Below are positions 5,820 through 60,403 of a stretch of 64,000 nucleotides of DNA, piece by piece (positions within the stretch are counted from its first letter, which is position 1; each line of letters starts with the position of its first letter). The DNA comes from Paracoccus zeaxanthinifaciens ATCC 21588. Its GTDB lineage: Bacteria > Pseudomonadota > Alphaproteobacteria > Rhodobacterales > Rhodobacteraceae. The stretch lies in the NCBI RefSeq assembly GCF_000420145.1, contig NZ_ATUJ01000013.1:1-64000 (forward strand), read 5' to 3'. A model generated the notes under the pieces. The model made no database searches. It saw nothing but the letters and a program-made list of their open reading frames with translations, and was not told where the DNA came from. The position numbers and the translations under genes were made by a program.

Positions 5820-7113
5820 AGCGCAGGGCCTCCACCGGGTTCATGCGCGCGGCGCGGCGCGCGGGAAAGATCGTGACGACGAAGGACAGCGCCAGCGACA
5901 GCCCCACCGCGCGGGCAAGATCCCATGCCCGCAATTCGGCGGGCAGGCGATAGATGCCGCGCACCTCGGGCTGCCACGCGCCGCCATTCGTCAGCGTGTT
6001 CAGCAGTGCCATGATATTTTCGACGTTCAACGCCAGCGCGACGCCCAGAACGACGCCCGCAAGCGTGCCGATGACGCCGGTGAAGGCCCCGCACAGGAAG
6101 AAGACCCGCAGCACCGACCCCTCGGTCAGGCCCATCGTGCGCAGGATGCCGATGTCGCGCCCCTTGTTCTTGACCAGCATGATCAGGCCGCTGGTGATGT
6201 TCATGGACGCGATCAGCACCAGCACCGACAGGATGACGAACATCACGTCATCCTCCATGTCCAGCGCCGACAGGAAGCTGCCCGACGCGTCGCGCCAGCT
6301 CCAGACCTGCGCGCCGACGCCTGCGGCCTGCAGCAGCGGGACGGTCAGGTCGTCGACCTTCTCGGGGTCCGCGACAAAGACCTCGATCTCGTCGGCGACG
6401 CCCTCGCGGTTGAAATAGCTCTGGGCCTCGGCCAGCGGCATGTAGATGCGCGTCCGGTCGATGTCGTATCGGCCCGCGCTGAAGATATAGGTCACCTCGT
6501 AGGCCTTCACGCGGGGCGTCGTGCCGAATGCGGTGCGCGCGCCCTCGGGCGCGATCAGCCGGATGCGGTCGCCCACATCCAGCGCCAGTTCGCGCGCGAT
6601 GCCCGCGCCGATCGCCACGCCATCGCCGAAGCGGGCGATATCCCCCTGCGAGGTTTCGGGATCGGCGATGCTGGGAATGGCAGCCAGGTCCCCGTCCGAG
6701 ATGCCGAACACCTCGGCCACGTTCGAGGCGTCGTTGGCGCTGGCCATCACCTGCCCCTTGACCACGGCGGCGGTCCTCTCGACCCCCGGCACCTCGGCCA
6801 GGCGGGCGGCCATTTCGGCGTAATCCTGGATGCGGCCCGCGCTGACATAGGTCTCGCCGGTGATCTCGTTCTCGATCCGGTTGGGGACCATGTAGACCGA
6901 GGTATGGGCATTCGCGCCCAGGATCGTGTCGACGAACTCGGCGCGGAAACCCGCCCGCACGGCCAGCGTCGCGATCAGCGCCATCACGCCAAGCGCGATG
7001 CCGATCAGGCTGATCCATGTCATGACGCTGACGCCGCCCTCGGCGCGTCTTGCGCGCAGGTAACGCCACGCGATCATGAATTCATAGCGTGAGAAGGGTC
7101 CCGTTCCGGCCAT
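5812..7113 (-). CDS. lolC: Lipoprotein-releasing ABC transporter permease (LolC/LolE family)
   Basis: This 433-residue inner-membrane protein has the LolC/E layout. An N-terminal cytoplasmic stretch ([17 protein letters not shown]) leads into a first membrane helix ([20 protein letters not shown]). A large periplasmic domain of about 220 residues follows. Three more helices sit in the last third: [37 protein letters not shown] and the final [19 protein letters not shown]. The conserved [14 protein letters not shown] loop, which contacts the ATPase, is intact. Only one permease gene is present, so it may act as a homodimer (sometimes called LolF) or pair with a LolE elsewhere; I cannot tell which. 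It is co-transcribed with lolD. Confidence 0.92.
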
Positions 7114-53100: not shown

Positions 53101-53847
53101 ATGGAAATCGAGGGACGGGTCTTTGTCGTCACGGGCGCCGCATCGGGTCTGGGGGCGGCCTCGGCGCGGATGCTGGCCCAAGGCGGCGCGAAGGTCGTGC
53201 TGGCCGATCTGGCGGAACCGAAGGACGCGCCCGAAGGCGCGGTTCACGCGGCCTGCGACGTGACCGACGCGACCGCTGCGCAGACGGCCATCGCGCTGGC
53301 GACCGACCGCTTCGGCAGGCTGGACGGCCTTGTGAACTGCGCGGGCATCGCGCCGGGCGAACGGATGCTGGGCCGCGACGGGCCGCATGGACTGGACAGC
53401 TTTGCCCGTGCGGTCACGATCAACCTGATCGGCAGCTTCAACATGGCCCGCCTTGCAGCCGAGGCGATGGCCCGGAACGAGCCCGTCCGGGGCGAGCGTG
53501 GCGTGATCGTCAACACGGCCTCGATCGCGGCGCAGGACGGACAGATCGGACAGGTCGCCTATGCGGCCAGCAAGGCGGGCGTGGCGGGCATGACGCTGCC
53601 GATGGCCCGCGACCTTGCGCGGCACGGCATCCGCGTCATGACCATCGCGCCCGGCATCTTCCGCACCCCGATGCTGGAGGGGCTGCCGCAGGACGTTCAG
53701 GACAGCCTGGGCGCGGCGGTGCCCTTCCCCTCGCGGCTGGGAGAGCCGTCGGAATACGCGGCGCTGTTGCACCACATCATCGCGAACCCCATGCTGAACG
53801 GAGAGGTCATCCGCCTCGACGGCGCATTGCGCATGGCCCCCAAGTGA
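53101..53847 (+). CDS. SDR family 3-hydroxyacyl-CoA dehydrogenase (HSD17B10-like)
   Basis: This 248-residue short-chain dehydrogenase has the cofactor motif [11 protein letters not shown] at 11-21, NNAG-like VNCAG (78-82), and catalytic Ser141, Tyr154 and Lys158 in YAASK. Its style ([38 protein letters not shown]) is like type II 3-hydroxyacyl-CoA dehydrogenases (HSD17B10). With the thiolase following 11 bases later, it can carry out the last two steps of acyl-CoA beta-oxidation. GGGGGGAGAG precedes the ATG at 53101. Confidence 0.9.
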
Positions 53848-53858
53848 AGGAGCGTTTC

Positions 53859-55034
53859 ATGGACCCCATCGTCATCACCGGCGCGATGCGCACCCCGATG
53901 GGGGCATTCCAGGGCGATCTTGCCGCGATGGATGCCCCGACCCTTGGCGCGGCCGCGATCCGCGCCGCGCTGAACGGCCTGTCGCCCGACATGGTGGACG
54001 AGGTGCTGATGGGCTGCGTCCTGCCCGCGGGCCAGGGTCAGGCACCGGCACGTCAGGCGGCGCTTGGCGCCGGACTGCCGCTGTCGGCGGGCGCGACCAC
54101 CATCAACAAGATGTGCGGATCGGGCATGAAGGCCGCGATGCTGGGCCATGACCTGATCGCCGCGGGATCGGCGGGCATCGTCGTCGCCGGCGGGATGGAG
54201 AGCATGTCGAACGCCCCCTACCTGCTGCCCAAGGCGCGGTCGGGGATGCGCATGGGCCATGACCGTGTGCTGGATCACATGTTCCTCGACGGGTTGGAGG
54301 ACGCCTATGACAAGGGCCGCCTGATGGGCACCTTCGCCGAGGATTGCGCCGGCGATCACGGTTTCACCCGCGAGGCGCAGGACGACTATGCGCTGACCAG
54401 CCTGGCCCGCGCGCAGGACGCCATCGCCAGCGGTGCCTTCGCCGCCGAGATCGCGCCCGTGACCGTCACGGCACGCAAGGTGCAGACCACCGTCGATACC
54501 GACGAGATGCCCGGCAAGGCCCGCCCCGAGAAGATCCCCCATCTGAAGCCCGCCTTCCGTGACGGTGGCACGGTCACGGCGGCGAACAGCTCGTCGATCT
54601 CGGACGGGGCGGCGGCGCTGGTGATGATGCGCCAGTCGCAGGCCGAGAAGCTGGGCCTGACGCCGATCGCGCGGATCATCGGTCATGCGACCCATGCCGA
54701 CCGTCCCGGCCTGTTCCCGACGGCCCCCATCGGCGCGATGCGCAAGCTGCTGGACCGCACGGACACCCGCCTTGGCGATTACGACCTGTTCGAGGTGAAC
54801 GAGGCATTCGCCGTCGTCGCCATGATCGCGATGAAGGAGCTTGGCCTGCCACACGATGCCACGAACATCAACGGCGGGGCCTGCGCGCTTGGGCATCCCA
54901 TCGGCGCGTCGGGGGCGCGGATCATGGTCACGCTGCTGAACGCGATGGCGGCGCGGGGCGCGACGCGCGGGGCCGCATCCGTCTGCATCGGCGGGGGCGA
55001 GGCGACGGCCATCGCGCTGGAACGGCTGAGCTAA
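53859..55034 (+). CDS. Acetyl-CoA C-acyltransferase (thiolase)
   Basis: This 391-residue thiolase has nucleophile Cys86 in INKMCGSGMKA, the HEAFA-type loop in VNEAFAVVAM, and NINGGACALGHPIGASGARI with the catalytic His. The final Cys is in SVCIGGGEATA. Both degradative and biosynthetic thiolases share these motifs. Its partner SDR suggests beta-oxidation, but acetoacetyl-CoA formation is also possible. I took the ATG at 53859 (AGGAG 7 bases upstream) rather than the GTG at 53844, which overlaps the SDR stop. It is followed by crtE after 165 bases. Confidence 0.92.
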   Translation: MDPIVITGAMRTPMGAFQGDLAAMDAPTLGAAAIRAALNGLSPDMVDEVLMGCVLPAGQGQAPARQAALGAGLPLSAGATTINKMCGSGMKAAMLGHDLIAAGSAGIVVAGGMESMSNAPYLLPKARSGMRMGHDRVLDHMFLDGLEDAYDKGRLMGTFAEDCAGDHGFTREAQDDYALTSLARAQDAIASGAFAAEIAPVTVTARKVQTTVDTDEMPGKARPEKIPHLKPAFRDGGTVTAANSSSISDGAAALVMMRQSQAEKLGLTPIARIIGHATHADRPGLFPTAPIGAMRKLLDRTDTRLGDYDLFEVNEAFAVVAMIAMKELGLPHDATNINGGACALGHPIGASGARIMVTLLNAMAARGATRGAASVCIGGGEATAIALERLS

Positions 55035-55199
55035 TTCATTTGCGCGAATCCGCGTTTTTCGTGCACGATGGGGGAACCGGAAACGGCCACGCCTGTTGTG
55101 GTTGCGTCGACCTGTCTTCGGGCCATGCCCGTGACGCGATGTGGCAGGCGCATGGGGCGTTGCCGATCCGGTCGCATGACTGACGCAACGAAGGCACCG

Positions 55200-56087
55200 A
55201 TGACGCCCAAGCAGCAATTCCCCCTACGCGATCTGGTCGAGATCAGGCTGGCGCAGATCTCGGGCCAGTTCGGCGTGGTCTCGGCCCCGCTCGGCGCGGC
55301 CATGAGCGATGCCGCCCTGTCCCCCGGCAAACGCTTTCGCGCCGTGCTGATGCTGATGGTCGCCGAAAGCTCGGGCGGGGTCTGCGATGCGATGGTCGAT
55401 GCCGCCTGCGCGGTCGAGATGGTCCATGCCGCATCGCTGATCTTCGACGACATGCCCTGCATGGACGATGCCAGGACCCGTCGCGGTCAGCCCGCCACCC
55501 ATGTCGCCCATGGCGAGGGGCGCGCGGTGCTTGCGGGCATCGCCCTGATCACCGAGGCCATGCGGATTTTGGGCGAGGCGCGCGGCGCGACGCCGGATCA
55601 GCGCGCAAGGCTGGTCGCATCCATGTCGCGCGCGATGGGACCGGTGGGGCTGTGCGCAGGGCAGGATCTGGACCTGCACGCCCCCAAGGACGCCGCCGGG
55701 ATCGAACGTGAACAGGACCTCAAGACCGGCGTGCTGTTCGTCGCGGGCCTCGAGATGCTGTCCATTATTAAGGGTCTGGACAAGGCCGAGACCGAGCAGC
55801 TCATGGCCTTCGGGCGTCAGCTTGGTCGGGTCTTCCAGTCCTATGACGACCTGCTGGACGTGATCGGCGACAAGGCCAGCACCGGCAAGGATACGGGGCG
55901 CGACACCGCCGCCCCCGGCCCAAAGCGCGGCCTGATGGCGGTCGGACAGATGGGCGACGTGGCGCAGCATTACCGCGCCAGCCGCGCGCAACTGGACGAG
56001 CTGATGCGCACCCGGCTGTTCCGCGGGGGGCAGATCGCGGACCTGCTGGCCCGCGTGCTGCCGCATGACATCCGCCGCAGCGCCTAG
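55200..56087 (+). CDS. crtE: Geranylgeranyl diphosphate synthase
   Basis: This 295-residue prenyltransferase makes C20 geranylgeranyl diphosphate, the carotenoid precursor. The first aspartate-rich motif is FDDMPCMDD (residues 82-90), and the second is SYDDLLDVIGDK at about 216-227. GKRFRAVLMLMVAES and GLCAGQDLDLHA are family features. I chose the ATG at 55200 (MTPKQQFPLRD) because an AAGG site lies 5 bases upstream; ATGs at 55176 and earlier lack one. It is the only crt gene on this strand and ends with a 4-base tail-to-tail overlap with crtB. Confidence 0.96.
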   Translation: MTPKQQFPLRDLVEIRLAQISGQFGVVSAPLGAAMSDAALSPGKRFRAVLMLMVAESSGGVCDAMVDAACAVEMVHAASLIFDDMPCMDDARTRRGQPATHVAHGEGRAVLAGIALITEAMRILGEARGATPDQRARLVASMSRAMGPVGLCAGQDLDLHAPKDAAGIEREQDLKTGVLFVAGLEMLSIIKGLDKAETEQLMAFGRQLGRVFQSYDDLLDVIGDKASTGKDTGRDTAAPGPKRGLMAVGQMGDVAQHYRASRAQLDELMRTRLFRGGQIADLLARVLPHDIRRSA

Positions 56088-56995
56088 GCGCGCGGTCGGG
56101 TCCACAGGCCGTCGCGGCTGATTTCACCGCCGCGCAGGCGCGATGCGGCCGCGTCCAAGCCTCCGCGCGCCAGAAGCCCGATCTTGGCAGCCTTCGACGT
56201 GCTGATCCGCTGGCGATAGGCCTCGGGGCCACCCTGCCGGATGCGCGTCCCGATTGCGCGATAGATACGCAGCGCGGCGGCGATCGACCACGCGCAGCGC
56301 GGCGGCAGATGCGGAAGCCCCTGCCGCGCCGAGGCATAATAGGGCTCGGCCGCGTCAAGCAGGCGGATGATGACGGAATAGAGCGCGTCCGAAGGCACCG
56401 GACCCTCAACCGTCGCCCCCGCCTCGGCCAGCCAGTCGGCAGGCAGATAGCAGCGCCCGATGGCGGCATCGTCGATCACGTCGCGAGCGATGTTCGTCAG
56501 CTGGAACGCAAGGCCCAGATCGCAGGCGCGATCCAGCACCGCATCGTCCTGCACGCCCATCACCCGCGCCATCATCACGCCCACGACCCCCGCGACGTGG
56601 TAGGAATATTCCAGCACGTCATCCAGGCTGCGGTATTCGCGATCCGCGACATCCATCGCGAAACCCTCGATCAGGTCCATCGGCCAAAGGTCCGGGAAAT
56701 CATGCCGCCGGGCGACCTGGCGCAGCGCCGCGAAGGGCGGCGACATCGGGCCGTCCTCGTGCAGCGCGGCCAGCGTGTCGGCGCGCAGCGCATCCAGCCG
56801 CGCCTGTGGGTCGCCGCCCGCCTCGGGGGCAGAACCCATCACCTGCCCGTCGATCACGTCATCCGCATGCCTGCACCAGGCATAGAGCATGACCGTATCC
56901 TCGCGGATGCCGGGCGGCATCAGCTTGGCCGCCTGCGCGAAGCTTTGCGAACCCTGCGCGATGGCCGCTTCGGAAGTCGCCGTCAGATCGGTCAT
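56084..56995 (-). CDS. crtB: Phytoene synthase
   Basis: This 303-residue enzyme joins two geranylgeranyl diphosphates into phytoene. Aspartate motifs are DDVID (about 45-49) and NIARDVIDDA (about 167-176), with YAWCRHADDVIDG, DVADREYRSLDDVLEYSYHV and CDLGLAFQLTNIARD typical of CrtB. The start at 56995 overlaps the crtI stop by 4 bases, and the stop overlaps crtE on the other strand by 4 bases. Last gene of crtZYIB. Confidence 0.96.
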   Translation of the reverse strand: MTDLTATSEAAIAQGSQSFAQAAKLMPPGIREDTVMLYAWCRHADDVIDGQVMGSAPEAGGDPQARLDALRADTLAALHEDGPMSPPFAALRQVARRHDFPDLWPMDLIEGFAMDVADREYRSLDDVLEYSYHVAGVVGVMMARVMGVQDDAVLDRACDLGLAFQLTNIARDVIDDAAIGRCYLPADWLAEAGATVEGPVPSDALYSVIIRLLDAAEPYYASARQGLPHLPPRCAWSIAAALRIYRAIGTRIRQGGPEAYRQRISTSKAAKIGLLARGGLDAAASRLRGGEISRDGLWTRPRA

Positions 56996-58476
56996 GCGAC
57001 GGCCAGGTCCGACAGCATGACCTGCGCCGTGGCCTTGGCGCTGCCAACGACACCCGGGATGCCCGCACCCGGATGCGTGCCCGCCCCCACGATGTAGAAG
57101 TTCGGGATCGCGCGGTCGCGGTTATGCGGGCGGAACCAGGCGGATTGCGTCAGGATCGGCTCGACCGAGAAGGCGCTGCCGTGATGGGCCGACAGTTCGG
57201 TGCTGAAATCGGCGGGGCTGAAGATGCGGCTGACGGTCAGGTGCTTGCGCAGGTCGGGGATGGCGCGGCGCTCCAGTTCCTCGAAGATGCGCTCGGCATA
57301 GCCCGGGGCCTCGGCTTCCCAATCGACATCGGCGCGGCCCAGATGCGGAACGGGCGCAAGGACGTAATGCGTGGACATCCCCTCGGGGGCCAGGCTGGGA
57401 TCGGTCACGCAGGGCGAATGCAGATACATCGAGAAATCGTCCGGCAGGCGTGGCCCGTTGAAGATCTCGTTCACCAGCCCCTTGTAGCGCGGGCCGAAGA
57501 TGACGCTGTGGTGGGCCAGGTTCTCGGGGCGCTTGGACAGGCCGAAATGCAGCACGAACAGCGACATCGACCAGCGCTGCCGGTTCAGGATCGCGGCCTT
57601 GGTGCGCCCGCGGCGGGTATGGCCCAGCAGGTCGCGATAGCTGTGCATCACGTCGCCGTTGCTGGCCACCGTATCCGCGCGCAACTGCCGCCCGTCCAGC
57701 AGCGTGACGCCCGTGGCGCGATCGCCCTCGGTGTCGATCCGCGTGACGCGGGCATTCAGCAGCAGCGTGCCGCCAAGACGCTCGAACAGGGCGACCATGC
57801 CCGCGACCAGCTGGTTGGTGCCGCCCTTGGCGAACCAGACGCCGCCGCGCCGTTCCAGCGCATGGATCAGCGCATAGATCGAGCTGGTCGAAAACGGGTT
57901 CCCGCCGACCAGCAGCGTGTGGAACGAGAAGGCCTGCCGCAGATGCGGGTCCTGGATGAAGCGCGCCACCATGCTGTGGACCGAGCGGTATGCCTGCAGG
58001 CGCATCAGCGCGGGCGCGGCGTTCAGCATCTGGCCCAGCTTCAGGAAGGGCGTGGTCCCCAGCTTCAGATACCCCTCGCGATAGACCTCCTCGGCGTAAT
58101 CGTGGAAGCGGCGATAGCCATCGACATCGGCGGGATTGAAGGAGGCGACCTGGCGGATCAGCTCGTCGTCGTCGTTCACGTATTCGAAGCTGCGGCCGTC
58201 CGCCCATGTCAGCCGGTAGAAGGGCGAGACCGGCAGCAGCGTCACGTCACGCTCCATCGGTTGGCCGCTGAGGGCCCACAGCTCTCGCAGGCTGTCGGGG
58301 TCGGTCACGACCGTCGGGCCTGCATCGAAGACGTGGCCCTGATCGTTCCAGACATAGGCGCGGCCGCCGGGCTTGTCGCGGGCCTCGACGATGGTGGTCG
58401 CGATGCCGGCCGATTGCAGGCGGATGGCAAGCGCAAGCCCGCCGAAACCTGCGCCGATGACGATGGCGGAACTCAT
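56992..58476 (-). CDS. crtI: Phytoene desaturase
   Basis: This 494-residue FAD enzyme desaturates phytoene to lycopene in four steps in bacteria of this group. The N-terminal dinucleotide motif IVIGAGFGGLALAIRLQSAG is at about 5-24, followed by KPGGRAYVWNDQGHVFDAGP. The C-terminal carotenoid-oxidoreductase signature is NFYIVGAGTHPGAGIPGVVG, followed by SAKATAQVML. The length is normal. It overlaps crtY upstream and crtB downstream by 4 bases each. Confidence 0.97.
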   Translation of the reverse strand: MSSAIVIGAGFGGLALAIRLQSAGIATTIVEARDKPGGRAYVWNDQGHVFDAGPTVVTDPDSLRELWALSGQPMERDVTLLPVSPFYRLTWADGRSFEYVNDDDELIRQVASFNPADVDGYRRFHDYAEEVYREGYLKLGTTPFLKLGQMLNAAPALMRLQAYRSVHSMVARFIQDPHLRQAFSFHTLLVGGNPFSTSSIYALIHALERRGGVWFAKGGTNQLVAGMVALFERLGGTLLLNARVTRIDTEGDRATGVTLLDGRQLRADTVASNGDVMHSYRDLLGHTRRGRTKAAILNRQRWSMSLFVLHFGLSKRPENLAHHSVIFGPRYKGLVNEIFNGPRLPDDFSMYLHSPCVTDPSLAPEGMSTHYVLAPVPHLGRADVDWEAEAPGYAERIFEELERRAIPDLRKHLTVSRIFSPADFSTELSAHHGSAFSVEPILTQSAWFRPHNRDRAIPNFYIVGAGTHPGAGIPGVVGSAKATAQVMLSDLAVA

Positions 58477-59621
58477 GCTCTCTCCTGCAGCAGGGGGCGT
58501 TCGGGCAGGCAGCGCACGGCCTGCGACAGCGGAATGGGCGGGCGTCCGGTGACGATGCGAAGCCGGTCGGCCAATGTCAGGCGCCCGGCATAGAAGCGCT
58601 CGATCAGCGGCTGCGGCAGGCGGTAGAACCGCTGCAGCAGGCGATAGCGACGGTCGGGCGGGCAGCCGCGGAACAGCATCCGGTTCAGCAGCCGCAGGAA
58701 GCGGTCGCGATCCGCGCGATCGATGGCCCAGCCGCGCACCGCGCGACGGGCGGACGCGGTCGTCAGGTCGCGCGCCGCGATGGCATCCGCGACCTGCGCG
58801 GCATAGGGCAGCGAATATCCGGTGACGGGGTGGAACAGCCCTGCCCCCAGCCCAACCGGCACCGCCCCCTGCGCGTGGTCGCGCCAGAAGCCTATGGCGT
58901 CATGGGCCAGCGCGATGGGCAGGATGCCCCTTTCGCGCCGCATCTCCTGCCCGGTCCAGCCCCGCCTGGCGGCATAGTCCAGCGACGCCTGCGCCAGCGC
59001 GCCATCGTCCAGATCGCCGCCGTCGCTGTAGCGCGTATCCTCGATCAGGATGCGGGTGGGACTGAAGGGCAGCAGATAGATGAAGCGGTACCCGTCCATC
59101 TGCGGAACGGTCGCGTCCATGATCATCGGGCGCTCGACGCCATGGGGGGCGTCGGTCTCGATCTCGACGCCCACGAATTTCTGGAAACCCACGGTCAGGT
59201 GCGGGGTCTCGACGGCACCACGGGCGTCGATCACGCAGGCAGCCTCGATCCGCGAGCCGTCCGTCAGCGTCGCGCCGGTATCGTCCAGCGTCGCGACATG
59301 CGTATTCCACCGCAGATCGACACCCTGCAGCAGCCCGATCAGCGCGCCCGCCTCGATCGAGCCATAGCCTGTCGTCAGGCGGCGCGAATGGTCGGGAAAC
59401 GCGACCTCCTGATCCGTCCATTCGCCGCGACGAATGGGCGACAGGCGCGCCAGCCATTCGGGCGAAAGATCCGTGTCGTGGCAGGACCAGGTGTGCTGGT
59501 CCGAGGGGCCGGACCGCGCGTCGAGCATCACGATGCGCGCATCCGGTCTGCGGTCGCGAACGGCAAGCGCGATCAGCGCACCGGACAGCCCCGCGCCCGC
59601 GATCAGCAGATCATGGCTCAT
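58473..59621 (-). CDS. crtY: Lycopene beta-cyclase
   Basis: This 382-residue flavoprotein cyclises both ends of lycopene to give beta-carotene. It has the N-terminal DLLIAGAGLSGALIALAVRD, the cyclase motif HTWSCHDTDLSPEW and the conserved MDGYRFIYLLPFSPTRILIE-type segment ending in DTRYSD. GLFHPVTGYSLPYAAQVAD, near the C-terminus, is also typical of CrtY. It overlaps crtZ (59618-59621) and crtI by 4 bases each. Confidence 0.96.
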   Translation of the reverse strand: MSHDLLIAGAGLSGALIALAVRDRRPDARIVMLDARSGPSDQHTWSCHDTDLSPEWLARLSPIRRGEWTDQEVAFPDHSRRLTTGYGSIEAGALIGLLQGVDLRWNTHVATLDDTGATLTDGSRIEAACVIDARGAVETPHLTVGFQKFVGVEIETDAPHGVERPMIMDATVPQMDGYRFIYLLPFSPTRILIEDTRYSDGGDLDDGALAQASLDYAARRGWTGQEMRRERGILPIALAHDAIGFWRDHAQGAVPVGLGAGLFHPVTGYSLPYAAQVADAIAARDLTTASARRAVRGWAIDRADRDRFLRLLNRMLFRGCPPDRRYRLLQRFYRLPQPLIERFYAGRLTLADRLRIVTGRPPIPLSQAVRCLPERPLLQERA

Positions 59622-60127
59622 GTATTGCGATCCGCCCCTTCGCGGTCCTTCAGCAGCGCGCCCGAGCGTTTCAGCTCTGCCTTGAGGCTGTCGACCGAGG
59701 GCGCCCAGATGAAACCGAAGCTGACGCAGTTCTCGCGGCCATGGACCGCGTGATGCATCCTGTGTGCCTGGTAGACGCGACGAAGATAGCCGCGCTTGGG
59801 GACATAGCGGAACGGCCAGCGCCCATGCACCAAGCCGTCATGCAGGAAATAGTAGATCAGCCCGTAGCAGGTGACCCCCACCGCCAGCCACCAGGCCAGA
59901 TCCGACCCCATCGCGCCGATCGCGAACAGCACGATCGAGATTACCGCGAAGATGACGCCATAGAGGTCGTTCTTCTCGAGCGCGTGGTCGTGATCCTCGT
60001 CGTGGTGCGATTTATGCCAGCCCCAGCCCAGGGGGCCATGCATGATCCACCGATGGACGGAGTAGGCCGTCAGCTCCATCGCGGCGACGGTCAGGATGAC
60101 GGTCAGGATTGCGGCCCAAGTGCTCAT
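59618..60127 (-). CDS. crtZ: Beta-carotene 3-hydroxylase
   Basis: This 169-residue membrane di-iron hydroxylase converts beta-carotene to zeaxanthin. The histidine clusters are present: HRWIMHG, HKSHHDEDHDH (with the HxxHH pattern), HDGLVHGRW and QAHRMHHAVHG. About four membrane segments are visible, starting ILTVILTVAAMELTAYSV. First gene of crtZYIB; the promoter should lie in 60128-60326. In astaxanthin-making Paracoccus a crtW gene sits immediately upstream of crtZ; here there is only non-coding DNA and tRNA-Pro. Confidence 0.96.
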   Translation of the reverse strand: MSTWAAILTVILTVAAMELTAYSVHRWIMHGPLGWGWHKSHHDEDHDHALEKNDLYGVIFAVISIVLFAIGAMGSDLAWWLAVGVTCYGLIYYFLHDGLVHGRWPFRYVPKRGYLRRVYQAHRMHHAVHGRENCVSFGFIWAPSVDSLKAELKRSGALLKDREGADRNT

Positions 60128-60326
60128 GCCGGCCCCTTGCTTGATATGACAGGGAACAGGCTACGCTGCCGCGCGGTGCATGACCAGCCCATCGGGGTGC
60201 GACCAAAGGGCATCGCGTGACATCTGCGTTCAGGGCTCATAGGCGGATCATCCGTGACATTCGCCGCCGAACGCGGCAGGCGCATCACGCGTTCCGTCGC
60301 TGGAAATATTAATGTTTTCCCGAAGA

Positions 60327-60403
<77 letters not shown>

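Follow-up and report, generated by a model that had tools for sequence, protein, structure and literature searches.

A probable order of gene losses behind a zeaxanthin gene cluster in Paracoccus: ketolase first, isomerase second

The 64,000-nucleotide stretch of DNA analysed here (the window), from a draft genome probably belonging to Paracoccus zeaxanthinifaciens, carries at positions 55200-60127 a carotenoid gene cluster that lacks two traits of the Paracoccus astaxanthin cluster idi-crtWZYIB: the ketolase gene crtW directly upstream of crtZ, and a type 2 isopentenyl diphosphate isomerase gene (idi) within the cluster. We consider it likely, with a probability of roughly 0.85, that this working zeaxanthin cluster was derived by two successive deletions from an astaxanthin cluster of the order idi-crtW-crtZ-crtY-crtI-crtB><crtE. 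In the first step crtW would have been lost in the common ancestor of the source organism and its closest relative, Paracoccus sp. C2R09 (genome G113), so that idi came to stand directly before crtZ and beta-carotene could only be hydroxylated, by CrtZ, to zeaxanthin. In the second step the lineage of the window would have lost idi too, as far as the stop codon of that gene, which was probably redundant there because the mevalonate operon brings its own type 2 idi and the tested genes of the methylerythritol phosphate (MEP) pathway are missing. A ketolase-free zeaxanthin cluster is in itself already known; the comparison adds the probable order of events and presents C2R09 as a ready intermediate between astaxanthin-type clusters and that of the window.

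The cluster and its surroundings, with genes taken from a list of open reading frames (ORFs), are as follows.
55200-56087, plus strand: crtE, geranylgeranyl diphosphate synthase (prenyl-synthase profiles; synteny with C2R09, 83% identity)
56084-56995, minus strand: crtB, 15-cis-phytoene synthase (NF042419; 91% identity to C2R09)
56992-58476, minus strand: crtI, phytoene desaturase (TIGR02734, 722 bits, above cut-off; 95% identity to C2R09)
58473-59621, minus strand: crtY, lycopene beta-cyclase (TIGR01789, 382 bits, above cut-off)
59618-60127, minus strand: crtZ, beta-carotene 3-hydroxylase (PF04116; tree position among CrtZ of crtW-bearing Paracoccus)
60128-60214, minus strand: crtZ leader, matching by blastn the idi-crtZ spacer of C2R09, from the second nucleotide of the idi stop codon there onward
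60215-60321, no strand: 107-base stretch with 57.9% G+C, occupying the place of C2R09 idi
60327-60403, minus strand: tRNA-Pro(tgg), the left boundary, common to C2R09
53844-55034, plus strand: acetyl-CoA acetyltransferase gene upstream of crtE (profile match; conserved neighbour in C2R09, 86%)

As the first-pass annotation of this DNA had proposed, the ORF coordinates show crtZ, crtY, crtI and crtB coupled by 4-base overlaps at all three junctions and lying opposite crtE, and the non-coding space between crtZ and tRNA-Pro, put there at about 200 bases, measures 199 (60128-60326). The ends of the convergent genes crtB and crtE overlap in a palindromic CTAG (56084-56087) containing both stop codons; a second ATG at 55176 offers an alternative start for crtE. 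The best profile matches of CrtE are farnesyl or geranylgeranyl diphosphate synthases, every one under its curated cut-off, and the best match of CrtB (NF042419, E 9.8e-108) reaches 360 bits against a cut-off of 480, so that both assignments lean on synteny as well. Profile support for CrtZ comes from the general family PF04116 (FA_hydroxylase, E 6.9e-13), and a comparison with NCBIfam models gave no match. Taken together, genes for geranylgeranyl diphosphate synthase, phytoene synthase, phytoene desaturase, lycopene beta-cyclase and beta-carotene hydroxylase complete the gene set of a zeaxanthin (crtEBIYZ) cluster.

To place this arrangement among related ones we surveyed 125 Paracoccus genomes and compared 46 crtZ loci, two of them contributed by genome G022; the locus of the source genome is the window itself. 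CrtZ was found in 46 genomes and CrtW in 41, all within those 46; the CrtW search gave no match in either the source genome or C2R09. The commonest arrangement, at 29 of the 46 loci, is idi-crtW-crtZ in a row (28 with complete crtYIB, one cut by a contig end). Nine loci have crtW-crtZ only, with no crtYIB in the available stretch, three have the order crtY-crtI-crtW-crtZ-crtB, four are built differently and have no crtW, and at one locus, that of C2R09, idi-crtZYIB faces crtE, without crtW. Among the 31 clusters ordered crtZ-crtY-crtI (30 compared loci and the window), idi lies upstream in 30, and the window is the only exception. This absence of idi, which the first-pass annotation had not noticed, means that a second gene is gone from the same spot.

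The cluster of C2R09 (L010/L126) resembles that of the window in having crtZYIB opposite crtE beside tRNA-Pro and no crtW, with CrtZ 89% and CrtY 83% identical, but differs in that a type 2 idi separates crtZ from tRNA-Pro. The deletion boundary can be observed directly by blastn of the leader. Two blocks align with C2R09: one, 81% identical, extends a little beyond tRNA-Pro, to 60322, and the other, 82% identical, sets in at 60214 and continues through the start of crtZ. On the C2R09 side this second block opens at L010 base 6914, the central nucleotide of the idi stop codon. Between the blocks C2R09 has 1188 bases (L010 5726-6913, mostly idi, whose ORF spans 5854-6915), whereas the window has 107. 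This stretch has no second copy in the source genome, and its best match among the available loci covers 21 bases (E 0.014). Relics of idi or crtW were sought in the 199-base leader by tblastn with CrtW and Idi and none were found, the best E values among the matches listed being 0.11 and 0.30. The claim that crtW is absent beside crtZ is thus upheld by ORF calls, locus comparison and this search. The leader is the expected location of the crtZYIB promoter; a sigma-70 promoter scan and a terminator search of it recognised neither.

Trees place the two clusters within the astaxanthin type. In a CrtB+CrtI+CrtY tree of 37 rows the window and C2R09 are joined with a Shimodaira-Hasegawa-like approximate likelihood ratio test (SH-aLRT) value of 100, and the pair lies inside a 17-row set (SH-aLRT 100) whose other 15 rows are all crtW-bearing. 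An RpoB tree of 38 rows also joins them (SH-aLRT 99). The RpoB stretches of G003, G088, G072, G025, G010, G008 and G045 and the idi contig of G041 (L238) were left out of the analysis. On the CrtB+CrtI+CrtY tree the crtW label requires two changes, one of which is the outgroup. Because the pair is nested among crtW bearers and so few changes are needed, crtW was most simply, and probably, lost once, before the lineages of the window and C2R09 parted. The loss of idi was probably later and took place on the window lineage.

The likely background of the second loss lies in the isoprenoid precursor route. The source genome contains a mevalonate operon of six genes in a row, mvaA-idi-hcs-mvk-pmk-mvd (L174 7256-13512, on contig C2), encoding 3-hydroxy-3-methylglutaryl-CoA (HMG-CoA) reductase, a type 2 Idi, HMG-CoA synthase, two kinases and diphosphomevalonate decarboxylase. 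The only family matched by either kinase is mevalonate kinase, with scores short of the model's cut-off, and position was used to tell mvk from pmk. The only idi found in the genome is the one beside HMG-CoA reductase, 49% identical to the crt-linked idi of C2R09. Searches for IspG, Dxr and IspH in the source genome found none, so gene content points to exclusive use of mevalonate. IspG is present in 120 of the 125 Paracoccus genomes and Dxr in 119; IspG was also missed in G086, G061, G017 and G041, and Dxr in G075, G029, G061, G017 and G041, genomes that are 71-95% complete. HMG-CoA reductase matches occur in 11 genomes, and the source genome is the sole one of these, and of all 125, to combine such a match with a lack of IspG and Dxr. 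The other ten (G008, G021, G030, G034, G045, G077, G078, G084, G103 and G106) have HMG-CoA reductase scores above that of the window's organism. Since C2R09 has IspG and Dxr and its HMG-CoA reductase search gave no match, the change of route also appears to fall on the window side.

Several points weigh against this scenario. The profile scores of CrtE and CrtB, as noted, are below their curated cut-offs. Support is weak (SH-aLRT 81, from a short tree search) for the branch that links the pair with the closest crtW bearers, the state without crtW in this cluster type is known from two genomes only, and two independent losses of crtW are possible. Misses due to draft assembly may also affect the source genome, with its 35 contigs: G061 (90% complete) and G041 (95%) lack matches to IspG, Dxr and HMG-CoA reductase alike, which may reflect incomplete assembly or a genuine peculiarity. 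HMG-CoA reductase occurs alongside IspG and Dxr in ten other Paracoccus genomes, and the sole crt-cluster bearer among them, G030, keeps its crt idi together with all three genes. Finally, Idi is generally taken as dispensable alongside the MEP pathway, and its loss could therefore predate the arrival of the mevalonate operon. Redundancy of the old idi once the new one was present is something we infer from a single coincidence of idi loss and route change (n = 1).

Much of this would equally suit an alternative, namely that the losses of crtW and idi were unrelated, had no link to the mevalonate pathway and reflect plain drift. An Idi not strictly required with the MEP route, a loss confined to one lineage whose coincidence with the loss of the MEP genes has no second instance, and the retention of crt idi in G030 despite its HMG-CoA reductase all speak for this reading. 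We nevertheless regard it as fairly unlikely, given that the one crtZ-crtY-crtI cluster of 31 without idi upstream sits in precisely the one genome that has an HMG-CoA reductase match and neither IspG nor Dxr.

It is far less probable that the state without crtW is ancestral and that other lineages acquired crtW by insertion between idi and crtZ. The four Paracoccus loci of other crt architecture without crtW would fit such a history, and crtW evidently can move, being found with crtZ as a separate pair at nine of the 46 loci and on plasmid pAK4. However, the nesting of the window pair among crtW-bearing clusters of idi-crtW-crtZYIB order would then call for several insertions at one site or for replacement of the whole cluster. 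For the lineages treated in PMC2889829, the phylogenies of CrtZ and CrtW are said not to have allowed a clear choice between transfer and a history of gain and loss.

Zeaxanthin as the product also requires that no ketolase is encoded elsewhere. The source genome (3,049,695 bases or 3.05 Mb in 35 contigs, 99.99% complete, draft) was searched with P. saliphilus CrtW, PF00487 and a CrtO model, and none of these searches found a beta-carotene ketolase. The CrtW query, which itself matches NF045690 (E 7.8e-62, below the cut-off of that model), gave no match; the same search had matches in 41 of the 125 genomes. The CrtO model gave no match above its cut-off; below it, the model matched crtI in two pieces and, at C3:259486, a stretch of 41 positions (E 6.4e-4). 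PF00487 (FA_desaturase) had a single match, inside an ORF of 378 amino acids that, to the eye, looks AlkB-like. The search for a crtW homologue elsewhere in the genome, suggested in the first-pass annotation as a way of refuting its view, thus left that view standing. With the genome searches negative for a ketolase, crtEBIYZ can be expected to end in zeaxanthin, as the annotation had also predicted. A ketolase of unrecognised type, with the organism making ketocarotenoids, is very improbable: the searches covered only CrtW-like, FA_desaturase and CrtO families, but passages of PMC9229179 and PMC11805741 name zeaxanthin as the product or main carotenoid of P. zeaxanthinifaciens.

The identity of the organism fits this picture. 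According to the same passages, which cite Pasamontes et al. 1997, P. zeaxanthinifaciens (formerly Flavobacterium sp. R1534) has a cluster of crtZ, crtY, crtI, crtB and crtE and makes zeaxanthin; judged from these published descriptions rather than from its sequence, that cluster has the same genes, no crtW and no difference from the one in the window. P. zeaxanthinifaciens ATCC 21588 is described in part of PMC6742980 as having a mevalonate operon whose genes follow the same order, 67% G+C and the mevalonate pathway only. The window has 67.3% G+C. In other words, the published crtZYIB/crtE cluster, the mevalonate operon, the lack of detected MEP genes and a G+C content of about 67% agree with the remark in the first-pass annotation that the gene order fits this species, which makes the identification strong, if indirect. 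Paracoccus clusters of the astaxanthin type, such as those of P. saliphilus (L011), of N81106, and of P. marcusii and others, share the crtZYIB order with crtE but have crtW before crtZ, and P. saliphilus has idi before crtW. The parts of the literature consulted describe crtWZYIBE in P. marcusii and others (PMC7359593) and both crtW and a type 2 idi in the N81106 cluster (PMC3111180). A search of open-access literature found no title on crtW or idi loss in this lineage, which is weak evidence of absence.

The window and C2R09 on one side and crtW-bearing Paracoccus on the other form a natural pair for asking whether the hydroxylase adapts once its partner ketolase disappears, a question that bears on zeaxanthin and astaxanthin production. 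According to part of PMC9036794, CrtZ of Paracoccus PC1 prefers canthaxanthin over beta-carotene. At 91 conserved columns CrtZ of the window and C2R09 has eight shared changes (columns 74, 85, 87, 102, 124, 129, 141 and 144), with nine other pairs ranging from 0 to 6; in the other proteins of the same pair the shared changes are 1/168 (CrtY), 1/162 (CrtB) and 12/327 (CrtI). Some fall by the histidine motifs: Q to G102 adjoins H101 and L to M124 lies within HRMHH, with E to H129 and Y to W141 also by them. Histidines of such motifs bind iron in this enzyme family. The CrtZ stem of the pair accounts for 8.7% of its tree; the mean share for CrtB, CrtI and CrtY is 3.1%. However, this ratio of 2.8 ranks only third of 43 branches, and similar bursts occur in crtW-bearing pairs (G050+G108 with CrtY 22/180 and CrtI 36/337; G040+G107 with CrtB 17/166). 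Moreover, CrtZ itself reaches 6/93 in two pairs that bear crtW, and the eight columns include position 74, which is doubtful. The modest CrtZ excess on the shared branch is therefore a lead, suggestive only. It is tempting to speculate that ketolase loss re-tuned CrtZ from a canthaxanthin-preferring enzyme to one acting mainly on beta-carotene (changes at 102, 124, 129 and 141) and that the idi of the mevalonate operon then freed the crt-linked one, pigment type and precursor route remodelling the operon stepwise, yet we hold this full sequence of events to be unlikely.

Three other ideas about CrtZ were discarded. Lateral acquisition of a zeaxanthin-type enzyme was rejected because the pair falls inside the Paracoccus CrtZ group (bootstrap 99, rough, and SH-aLRT 98 in a 43-row set) and because window CrtZ is 63-71% identical to that of crtW-bearing Paracoccus against at most 60% for other genera (best 80 of 97). 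At residue 74 all 41 crtW-bearing Paracoccus have W; the window and C2R09 have G, as do 75 of 76 loci of other genera without crtW in the available flank. This residue was dropped as a ketolase marker: a second alignment with plasmid-borne CrtZ places an indel in this loop, and crtW-less Paracoccus of other architecture have W. M124 as a mark of ketolase absence was rejected, two crtW-bearing Paracoccus also having M. It occurs in all 76 other-genus loci, a count biased by the pattern YQAHRMHH used to find them, and among 12 plasmid loci (hand-picked from 40 listed of 109 tblastn records) in 6/6 from Pantoea and 0/6 others, only one of the latter with crtW nearby.

Outside the cluster, the acetyltransferase beside crtE may have a role in supplying acetoacetyl-CoA for mevalonate. 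It is one of the outer neighbours that, among the 46 loci, are common to the window and C2R09 only, together with FabI, PdxH, a cold-shock-like protein, a DUF192-like protein, a short-chain dehydrogenase/reductase (SDR) and an AraC-type regulator; these names were mostly read by eye, those of the acetyltransferase and the AraC type coming from profile matches. The crtW-crtZ pair, possibly a mobile astaxanthin module, is found at L139-L143, L148, L151, L154 and L156 and on plasmid pAK4 of Paracoccus sp. AK26 (L241, 5261-6483). The second crt cluster of G022 (L171, G022:C79:16867-17304) is of other architecture, and its crtZ match has one internal TAG.

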